Assembly (NCBI GenBank): GCA_025455885.1
Contig: JALOLR010000002.1
Location: 1-64,000, forward strand
From: Acidimicrobiales bacterium
Lineage (GTDB): Bacteria; Actinomycetota; Acidimicrobiia; Acidimicrobiales; Acidimicrobilacustridaceae
Direction of reading: 5' to 3'
Length of the DNA: 64,000 nt
Shown one piece after another: positions 17,844 to 21,216 of the stretch. Below the pieces are notes generated by a model. It worked only from the letters and a program-made list of their open reading frames with translations, did no database searches and was not told the DNA's origin. How positions within the stretch are numbered: the stretch's first letter is position 1; every line of letters starts with the position of its first letter. Made by a program: the position numbers and the translations under genes.

Positions 17844-19574
17844 TCAGGCCTTCCCCATCTCGTCGAGGAAGAGGTCGTTGGAGCGGAACTCGCCGAGGCG
17901 GTCGACGAGCATCTCGAGGCCCGCTCCCCCGCTGCCGGACTCCGCGGCCAGCCCGCTCAGCACCCGACGCAGCTTCCAGACCTTCTGCAGCTGGGGCCGG
18001 TCGAAGAGCAGTTCCTCGTGACGGGTGGACGAGGCGTCCACGTCGATCGCCGGGTACACCCGCCGCTCGGCGAGGCGCCGGTCGAGGCGCAGCTCCATGT
18101 TCCCGGTGCCCTTGAACTCCTCGAAGATCACCTCGTCCATCTTCGACCCGGTCTCGACGAGGGCCGTCGCCAGGATCGTGAGCGAACCGCCCTCCTCGAT
18201 GTTGCGGGCGGCGCCGAAGAACTTCTTGGGCGGGTACAGGGCACCGGTGTCGATGCCGCCGCTCATCACGCGCCCGGTGGCGGGAGCGGCGAGGTTGTAG
18301 GCGCGGGCGAGTCGGGTGATGCCGTCGAGGATCACCACGACGTCCTTGCCCTCCTCGACCCGGCGCTTGGCCCGCTCGATGACCAGTTCGGCGATCGCGG
18401 TGTGCTCCTCGGTGGGTCGGTCGAAGGTCGAGGCGACCACCTCACCCTTCACGGACCGGCGCATGTCGGTGACCTCCTCGGGACGCTCGTCGACGAGGAG
18501 GACGATCAGCTCGACCTCGGGGTTGTTGGTCTCGATCGCCTTGGCGATCTGCTTCATGACCGTGGTCTTCCCCGCCTTGGGCGGCGACACGATCATCCCC
18601 CGCTGACCTTTCCCGATCGGGCAGATCAGGTCGATGATCCGCGCCGTCATGTCGTAGGGACTGTCAGGGGTCTCGAGCCGGAGCCGCTCGTCGGGGAACA
18701 ACGGGGTGAGGTCCTCGAACCGGCGTCGCCCGCGCGCCACCTCGACGTCGGCGCCGTTGACGGCGTCGATGCGCAGGAGAGCGGGGTTCTTCTCGTTGCG
18801 GGTCGCCGGCCGGCTGGTGCCCTTGATGTGGTCGCCCCGGCGGAGCGCGAACTGCCGGGTCTGCTTGACCGACACGTACACGTCGTCCTTGCCCGGGAGG
18901 TAGCCGTCGACCCGGATGAAGCCGTAGCCCTCGTCCCGGAGATCGAGGAGCCCCTCCACCTCCGCCGCCTCGGCGGCGGGGACGTCGTCCGGGCGATCGG
19001 GGCGCTCGCCCCGGTCGGTGCCGCGGTCCCGGCCGCGGCGTCGACGTCGCCGACCCGGTTCGGCCTCGGCGCCGTTCCCGGGGGACGACGCCGTCGGGGG
19101 GCCGTCGGTCGGGGCTGCGGGGAGGGAGGCCGGGCCGGGCTCGGCGGCCTCGACCCCGGTCGACTCGTCGTCGGTCGTGTCGGGGGCCGGCTCGTGGGAC
19201 TCGGCCTCGGCCTCGGCGTCGCGGGTCCGGCGGGTCCGGCGGGAGCGGGGTGCCGGGGAGGGGGTCGCGTCCCCCGGCTCGTCGCCCAGCTCGGACGCGA
19301 TGGCCTCGGGCTCGGACGGGGCGGCCTCCGGCTCGATGGCGACGGCCTCCGGCTCAGCCGGTGCGGGCGCCGACGCGTCGGCCGGCTCTGCGACCTCGGT
19401 GGCGACGTCGGTCCGCGTGGTGACCCCGGTCAGCTCGAGGACGAGGTCGACGATGTCGGCCTTCTTGGCCCTCGACCCGGGCTTGCCGCCCAGCGCCGTG
19501 GCGATGGTCATCAGCTCGTCGCGATCCTTGCGCTCGAGCGCCGATCGTTCGAGTTGCTCGGAATCCGCGCTCAT
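17844..19574 (-). CDS. rho: Transcription termination factor Rho, with long disordered insertion
   Basis: Hexameric RNA helicase that ends transcription. 576 residues. Rho N-terminal helical domain at about 11-50, then a low-complexity acidic/Pro/Arg insertion at about 51-203 including an R/D-rich patch ([20 protein letters not shown]), then the RNA-binding cold-shock fold (about 205-285, [19 protein letters not shown]) and the ATPase with P-loop PPKAGKTT at 332-339. Such insertions are typical of high-GC actinobacterial Rho. ATG start preceded by GAGGTG. A 434-bp gap with strong secondary structure lies upstream and may carry autoregulation. Confidence 0.97.
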
Positions 19575-19834
19575 CGGTGTGCACCTCGTCGGGGACGTGG
19601 CAGGAAGGCCACGGGGGGAAGGCCATCGCTTCGATGGCGGGGAGGGGGCTGACACGGCAGAGCGCCGGGCCCGGGCCGGAACCGACGTGAGGGCGTGAGA
19701 GCCCCCTGCGTCGACGCCGACCGCTCCGGTCGACCGGTTCGGACGCCCTCGAAGGGGTCTCCGCCGATCGACGGCCCTGACACGGTAGTGGCGGAGGGGC
19801 GGTGCGGCAACCGCCGCGACGGCCCGCGGGATCT

Positions 19835-19904
19835 CATCCGGGGCCGGTCCGGCTCCGTAGACCGGGCATCACCTCCCGCCGCGGTGATGCCCACGCCCCG
19901 GATG
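19835..19904. other. Putative structured RNA element: three-way junction upstream of rho
   Basis: Outer stem CATCCGGGGC (19835-19844) pairs perfectly with GCCCCGGATG (19895-19904). Inside are two hairpins: GGTC / GACC (about 19846-19863, 10-base loop) and a perfect 10-bp stem GGGCATCACC (19864-19873) / GGTGATGCCC (19883-19892) with a 9-base loop. Only 0-2 unpaired bases join the helices. The fold is possible on either strand; the minus strand would be part of the rho leader. I do not recognise a known riboswitch or ribozyme consensus. Confidence 0.45.
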
Positions 19905-19952
19905 ACCGGCTGACGTCATCCCCACGATGGCCGGTTCCTCCCGACCGGCGAC

Positions 19953-19984
19953 CCGGAGGTCCGACCCCAGGGTCGGGCCTCCGG
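19953..19984 (-). terminator. Terminator-like hairpin after the proposed homoserine kinase gene
   Basis: A 15-bp stem (CCGGAGGTCCGACCC against GGGTCGGGCCTCCGG, one G-T pair) with a 2-base spacer begins 25 bp after the stop of the upstream gene. No T-run follows, as is common in high-GC actinobacteria. It separates the threonine genes from rho. Confidence 0.6.
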
Positions 19985-20008
19985 CGCGTCCGGGGGCGGT
20001 CGGCCCGG

Positions 20009-21157
20009 TCAGCGCACCCCGACGAGTCGGGCCATGAGCTCGTGGCCGACCACCAGGGGGGCGTCGGCCACCCCGGCCTCGGTGTACGTGCCCCCTGCGC
20101 CCGGGTGCCGGGAGTCGACGAGCAGGTACGGGACCGGGTCGGGGGTGTGGGTCCGCAGGGCCAGAGGGGTGGCGTGGTCGGGCAGCAGCAGCATTCGCCA
20201 CGGCCCGAGTCGGTCGAGGCCGGGGACGAGGTCGGCGAGGATGCGCCGGTCCCAGTTCTCGAGGGCGCGGACCTTCTCCTCCACGTCGCCTGCGTGCCCG
20301 GCCTCGTCGCTGGCCTCGACGTGGATGATGAAGAGGTCGGCCCCGTCGGCCAGCGCGTCGAGGGCGCAGTCGCGCTTGCCCTCGTAATCGGTGTCGTACC
20401 ACCCGGTGGCCGTCTCGAGGTTGACGACCTCGATGCCGGTGAGGACCCCGAGCCCCCTGACGAGGTCGACGGCGGTCACGAGCGCCGCGTCGAGGCCGTA
20501 GGCGTCGGCGAACGACGGCATCCGGGGTTGGAAGCCCTGGCCCCACAGCCACACCTGGTTGGCGGCGAGCGGGCTGGCCCCCACGATCGACCGGGACGCC
20601 TCCATCAGTCGGCGCAGGTGCGGAGCGGCGGCACCGGTGGGCCACACGGACGGCTTGCCGGTGAGGTCGTGCGGGGGGACGCACTCGGCCTCCACCCAGT
20701 CCTGGGGGGCGACCATGATGTGGCGGTACTGCACGCCGGGGTGGAACGACACGCCGTCCCCGCCGAGCTCGCGGTCGAGCGCCTCGAGCACCCCGGCGGC
20801 CTCGGCAGTGGAGGGGTGCCCCCCGGCGAAGTCGACCATGGTGCCGTCGTCGCCGACGGTGACGAGGTTGCACCGGTAGGCGACCTGGTCGGGGGCGAGC
20901 TTCAGCCCGAGGGCGGCGGCCTCGATCGGCGCCCGACCGGTGTGGTAGCGGGCGGGGTCGTAGCCGAAGATCGACATGTTGCCGACGTCGGACCCCGGCG
21001 GCAGCCCGTCGGGGATCACCCCTGCCCGGCCGACCTCACCACGCGCCGCCAACGCGTCGAGGTGCGGCGTGTGGGCGACCTCGAGGGGCGTTCGTCCCCC
21101 GAGCGACTCGAGGGGCTCGTCGGCACAGCCGTCGGGGACGCACACCACGTACTTCAT
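20009..21157 (-). CDS. Proposed homoserine kinase (cofactor-independent phosphoglycerate mutase family)
   Basis: 382 residues of the ApgM branch of the alkaline phosphatase superfamily: metal ligand Asp9 in VPDGCADEP, nucleophile Ser62 in DVGNMSIFGYDP, ligands in HVEASDEAGHAGD and LLLPDHATP. It follows hom and thrC, where Mycobacterium has thrB, and no GHMP-type thrB is in the window. The ApgM-like subfamily described as proposed homoserine kinase (TIGR02535) is defined by this context, so phosphorylation of homoserine is more likely than glycolytic mutase activity. An ATG 12 bp upstream is an alternative start. Function is inferred, not shown. Confidence 0.8.
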   Translation of the reverse strand: MKYVVCVPDGCADEPLESLGGRTPLEVAHTPHLDALAARGEVGRAGVIPDGLPPGSDVGNMSIFGYDPARYHTGRAPIEAAALGLKLAPDQVAYRCNLVTVGDDGTMVDFAGGHPSTAEAAGVLEALDRELGGDGVSFHPGVQYRHIMVAPQDWVEAECVPPHDLTGKPSVWPTGAAAPHLRRLMEASRSIVGASPLAANQVWLWGQGFQPRMPSFADAYGLDAALVTAVDLVRGLGVLTGIEVVNLETATGWYDTDYEGKRDCALDALADGADLFIIHVEASDEAGHAGDVEEKVRALENWDRRILADLVPGLDRLGPWRMLLLPDHATPLALRTHTPDPVPYLLVDSRHPGAGGTYTEAGVADAPLVVGHELMARLVGVR

Positions 21158-21216
21158 GGTCGTGATCATGGCCCAACGCGAGGACCGCCCGCCCACCGGG
21201 CGGGTGACCGCCGCGA

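Follow-up and report, generated by a model that had tools for sequence, protein, structure and literature searches.

Autoregulation of rho through a leader of the E. coli type exists, and the element described here resembles that arrangement in lying upstream of rho on the same strand, and differs from it in standing outside the predicted transcript and in being unconserved. Inverted repeats generated by template switching are reportedly the topic of one study (PMC7202029) further to that cited below. In the accessible part of PMC8794818 template switching is described as a known source of perfect stems; the element agrees with the repeats described there in containing an exact inverted copy of a short adjacent sequence and in having a stem that could arise in one mutational step, whereas its copy is split by 19 nt and stands at a presumed gene-loss edge, and the event itself is our reconstruction. 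The accessible part of PMC8269248 reports highly structured transcript ends without U in Streptomyces clavuligerus and cites Mitra 2009 for the I-shaped terminators of GC-rich bacteria. With these, as that part presents them, the element shares a stable GC-rich hairpin after a gene and the lack of a U-tract, but it is a three-way junction and not one hairpin, a separate simple hairpin already follows the gene, and nothing like the element was seen in relatives.

The window (the whole stretch of DNA analysed, 64,000 nucleotides) comes from an Acidimicrobiales genome, referred to below as G000, and contains the following features between and around apgM and rho:

17844-19574, minus strand: rho (Pfam Rho_RNA_bind and ATP-synt_ab; start placed at the N-terminus shared with relatives)
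19782-19811, minus strand: putative rho promoter GTTGCCG-N17-TACCGT, downstream of the element (from a motif in rho upstream regions)
19834-19905, no strand assigned: the element, an interrupted inverted repeat resembling a three-way junction (stem scan, fold and direct reading)
19834-19844, no strand assigned: left arm of the outer stem (stem scan and direct reading)
19845-19863, no strand assigned: 19-nt interruption holding the third hairpin (fold and direct reading)
19864-19873, no strand assigned: left arm of the inner stem (stem scan and direct reading)
19866-19913, plus strand: presumed 3' remnant (the relic) of a convergent DUF4397 gene, reading ASPPAAVMPTPRMTG-stop (tail rank, alignment with G004 and synteny)
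19883-19892, no strand assigned: right arm of the inner stem, coding for V-M-P of the relic tail
19895-19905, no strand assigned: right arm of the outer stem, within the relic tail (stem scan and direct reading)
19953-19984, minus strand: hairpin A, terminator-like and U-less (fold -34.7 kcal/mol, z -3.1)
20009-21169, minus strand: apgM, cofactor-independent phosphoglycerate mutase, the upstream neighbour (Pfam PhosphMutase and Metalloenzyme; borders from a rough, self-written gene caller)

The order on the minus strand is apgM, hairpin A (19984-19953), the element and rho (start 19574). Hairpin A begins 24 nt past the apgM stop codon (20011-20009), and the element lies 103 nt beyond that stop, behind hairpin A. 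A strong hairpin without a T-run is also found just after apgM, at about the place of hairpin A, in the relatives G001, G004 and G006, and hairpin A is therefore probably the apgM terminator; the terminator-like hairpin that an earlier note on this DNA had placed ahead of the element is real. Examination of both strands of 19480-20120 revealed no terminator-like site with a T-run, and the element was discarded as a canonical intrinsic terminator, the interval containing no GC-rich hairpin followed by such a run. The Rho protein itself has an acidic, arginine-rich stretch at residues ~51-180 (by eye), which is missing from many alignments with relatives.

On the plus strand the element consists of an 11-nt arm, a 19-nt piece, a 10-nt arm, a 9-nt loop and GGTGATGCCC-AC-GCCCCGGATGA, in which the first ten and the last eleven bases are the reverse complement, without a mismatch, of the inner and the outer left arm respectively. 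The outer stem (19834-19844 with 19895-19905) has 11 perfect base pairs, the inner stem (19864-19873 with 19883-19892, loop of 9 nt) has 10, and a third hairpin of 5 bp is located inside 19845-19863; the predicted fold leaves 2, 0 and 1 bases of the junction unpaired. The earlier description of two perfect 10-bp stems with a small third hairpin was accurate, except that the outer stem is one pair longer. The 72 nt of the minus strand fold at -49.3 kcal/mol (z -5.1), an energy not attained by any of 200 dinucleotide shuffles (mean -33.0, sd 3.2), a comparison made after the borders of the element had been picked to fit the structure; a looser 90-nt stretch gives z -3.5 on the plus strand (0 of 200 shuffles) and z -3.0 on the minus strand (1 of 200). 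The element is thus predicted to be foldable as described on either DNA strand.

The apgM-rho region was compared among relatives; of 12 chosen genomes 10 yielded rho, and all of 17 yielded apgM. In half of the ten relatives with rho, a secreted DUF4397 gene is found between apgM and rho on the strand opposite to both, namely in G001 (a sister species of the same genus), G004, G005, G006 (two copies) and G007, and the Pfam DUF4397 profile scores above its cut-off at all five places. In the other five, apgM either adjoins rho (G008, G009 and G010) or is separated from it by other genes (G003 and G013, contents judged by eye). A Pfam profile search of G000 found no DUF4397 match between apgM and rho and four matches elsewhere (C1, C16 and C17), of which one exceeds the cut-off. 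When the rho-linked protein of G001 was used as the query, no DUF4397 protein was found in G000; the four proteins there share 28 to 35% identity with it over the aligned part, and the rho-linked proteins of G001 and G004 are 69% identical. Judged by these identities, the four copies of G000 would be distant paralogs only, and thus the local gene appears to be missing and not merely moved to the places found. At the DNA level, a homology search with 291 nt against 61 genomes matched five, the own genome and four others with short matches of 22 to 43 nt; these four 3-kb loci were discarded, as tblastn found no rho in them. The own genome held further matches of at most 37 nt only.

The plus strand of the element, read through to the stop codon at 19911-19913, gives ASPPAAVMPTPRMTG, which resembles the protein tails of four of the five relatives with a DUF4397 gene at this place (...AAVPSVTG in G001, ...GVMATPAMTG in G004, ...ATATPRYTG in both G006 copies and ...TAQPRVTG in G007); the gene of G005 ends differently, without such a tail. 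In particular, VMPTPRMTG of the window agrees with VMATPAMTG of G004 in seven of nine positions, a joint first place out of the 16,110 ORF ends of 864 kb that is flattered by the choice of G004 as yardstick owing to its likeness, and the other ORF end with seven of nine is the tail of a called gene bearing the same motif. The alignment score of the tail DNA with G004 is 42 (shuffles 27.5, sd 3.5, 1 of 300 reaching it). With the sister species G001 the first 12 bases are identical, and the score of 30 is not significant, being reached by 78 of 300 shuffles. The relic reading frame includes the inner hairpin, and the best-matching part of the relic contains the right outer-stem arm. Alignment with G001 and G004 gave nothing significant for the third hairpin or for the left outer-stem arm, which would fit a position of both beyond a deletion edge, and nothing significant for the stretch between the tail and the promoter. 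The DUF4397 domain itself is absent, and just the tail that follows it would remain. These observations support the proposal that roughly 15 terminal codons of a DUF4397 gene, with its stop, have been left at the locus, a reading that rests on about nine residues and on synteny. Because P-x-F-T-G tails are carried by many secreted proteins here, among them four other DUF4397 proteins of G000, a gene of another family may equally have been lost. A 72-aa ORF overlapping the element has no Pfam or NCBIfam match. Two further candidates were rejected: homology of 19868-19812 to the region upstream of the DUF4397 gene in G001, a resemblance seen by eye (TCTACGGnGCCGG) that is not significant, and a short minus-strand ORF after GGGAGGTG (MPGLRSRTGPG, by eye), whose start spacing is too short and which lies upstream of the promoter.

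On balance we favor, as the probable explanation, that the element is the relic 3' end of a lost gene together with a 23-nt inverted copy of it, a species-specific palindromic scar upstream of the rho promoter. In the ancestor, apgM and rho would have been separated by a secreted DUF4397 gene that converged on apgM, and this lineage would have lost the gene body from that place. A fold-back or template-switch replication error, at or after the loss, could have created both long stems in one step. Adjoining the tail is a reverse-complement copy of 21 of the 23 bases of GGTGATGCCC-AC-GCCCCGGATGA, the middle two bases being replaced in the copy by the 19-nt piece that forms the third hairpin. By itself, the description as an interrupted inverted repeat does not favor a scar over a selected structure, since any nested three-way junction can be rewritten in this way. 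Evolutionary intermediates of the scar were not found among the relatives examined.

Other explanations begin with chance, by which two unrelated stems would have nested accidentally in GC-rich DNA. Single stems of 10 bp or more inside an 80-nt span are indeed frequent (198 in 464 kb of the own genome, against a shuffle mean of 118), and the architecture was selected post hoc. Nested pairs are another matter: when two perfect stems, each of 10 bp or more, had to nest inside 80 nt and leave space for a third hairpin, the 464 kb contained one case, the element itself, and 20 shuffles of this sample contained one in total, a mean of 0.05 that overstates the rarity, the rule having been drawn up after the element was seen and being thus a lenient test. 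A further 400 kb of the own genome and 400 kb of the sister species had no cases, and the element is the sole such arrangement in 864 kb of its genome. Against this rate, and with none of the 200 shuffles of the element folding equally well, accidental nesting is improbable, and the earlier claim of complementarity beyond chance is borne out. The stable, well-defined fold predicted for both strands and the position 3' of apgM would be consistent with a small RNA, or with an apgM transcript that ends in a structured segment, but we regard this as very unlikely. The Rfam covariance-model search gave no match for the element, and no second copy is present in the own genome, so the separate small RNA proposed earlier finds no support from either. 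A promoter-like site is also missing from 19480-20120, a weak argument, as the sigma-70 consensus missed the putative rho promoter as well. Moreover, the homologous structure is absent from both aligned relatives: in G001 and G004 the DUF4397 gene body occupies the place of the outer-stem partner, and G004 has a different 9-bp hairpin of its own over the same codons. Compensatory changes, to which the earlier note had looked, are not visible as far as this alignment of three sequences allows, because two of them, G001 and G004, lack the outer-stem partner.

The proposal that the element acts in the rho 5' UTR, as a leader sensor or an attenuator, is favored by its position upstream of rho and on the rho strand, the start of the rho transcript being placed by a promoter motif. 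This motif, GTTG[C/T] and TAnnnT spaced by 18-20 nt, is present in 17 of 23 rho upstream regions from the order and its relatives, the window included, and has no match in the other six; mononucleotide shuffles predict 0.22, an excess inflated by composing the pattern after many of the same sequences had been read. The count omits L096 and L102 (rho start unsettled) and loci where the match began inside rho. The motif occurs once in the window (19811-19782), on the rho side of the element and 22 nt from it, and a rho transcript starting from it, at ~19775, would exclude the element. Since the putative promoter sits between the element and rho, a leader role is disfavored, unless rho is expressed mostly by readthrough from apgM. 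Neither the sister species nor G004 has such a structure at rho; the outer-stem counterpart is absent from both, and the other upstream regions inspected by eye showed none. Hence the earlier assignment to the rho upstream region stands for the gene and probably fails for the message, the leader sensor is unsupported, and we consider it most improbable of all. Another possibility is that the element works as a second U-less (I-shaped) terminator or insulator that backs up hairpin A, the first barrier, in shielding the rho promoter from apgM-operon readthrough. Across three samples of two genomes (L123-L193), perfect hairpins of at least 9 bp number 24.6, 13.7 and 20.7 per 10 kb of convergent intergenic DNA versus 4.9, 5.8 and 5.0 in coding DNA, i.e. 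they are 2 to 5 times denser, and the 13 convergent hairpins of the first sample are followed on the plus strand by 8 bases with 0 to 3 T. Given this density and the few T, hairpin ends without a U-tract seem normal here, which suggests that I-shaped terminators may occur in this family; the U-lacking structured ends reported for S. clavuligerus in the accessible part of PMC8269248 point the same way. However, tandem intergenic DNA, the present class of the region, has just 6.8, 8.8 and 10.7 such hairpins per 10 kb, a weak excess, the relatives examined that share the apgM-rho order showed no such element, the search of 19480-20120 gave no T-run terminator-like site on either strand, and the element stands behind hairpin A, which fits an I-shaped terminator better. 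We therefore judge a functional barrier unlikely. The scar has probably no dedicated regulatory role, being at most a U-less hairpin barrier after the terminator hairpin of apgM.

The tail itself belongs to a wider pattern. The motif P-x-[FVMYLI]-T-G was found at the extreme C-terminus of 11 of 1,092 called genes from G000 and G001 (3 of 376, 3 of 362 and 5 of 354 in three samples), with 0.12 expected from residue frequencies; DUF4397 tails served to define it, and its first three hits preceded the count, the last two samples being fresh. The proteins that bear it look secreted and have unrelated folds. Its loci are L126:9784-11019 (minus strand), L131:10964-12895 (minus), L140:9427-10662 (plus), L107:603-1394 (plus) and further ones in L214-L217 and in the samples L154-L193, besides the relic at 19866-19913 of the window. 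By eye, nine of the 11 proteins have a Thr/Pro/Ala/Gly-rich stretch before the tail, and nine have a hydrophobic, signal-like start. Three of them, when scanned, showed a YVTN beta-propeller, a bacterial Ig domain with a weak GDSL match and a PD40 propeller, respectively. The motif also ends all four DUF4397 proteins found in G000 and another two in G001, and is missing from those of G042, G005 (beside rho) and G006 (C50). When ORFs of 80 codons or more are counted, 8 of 5,573 in G000 (relic included) and 5 of 2,524 in G001 bear it, as compared with 0 of 1,341 and 0 of 1,223 in samples of 200 kb each from two other families of the order, where about 4 would be expected by the per-base rate. 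The DUF4397 protein beside rho in G005 (L145:790-2652, plus strand) has three S-layer homology stretches instead of a TPxFTG-type tail, as if one surface anchor had replaced another, and this substitution suggests that the tail may also serve in surface attachment. The TPxFTG tail is possibly an undescribed surface-sorting tag; a literature search on the C-terminal motif found nothing, and in an NCBIfam scan of four proteins no listed best stretch extended to the tail.

Finally, it is conceivable, if improbable, that through one template-switch event the gene-loss scar became a perfect three-way junction, now serving as a new transcription barrier or cruciform before the rho promoter; if true, this would be a newly born structural element seen before it has relatives. 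More generally, a striking multi-helix fold can arise without serving as an RNA regulator, through gene loss and an inverted copy of the remaining tail, and at this locus synteny and promoter position are better judges than folding energy. The analysis of the scar has also led to a C-terminal motif on secreted proteins of these bacteria that may represent an undescribed surface-sorting tag.
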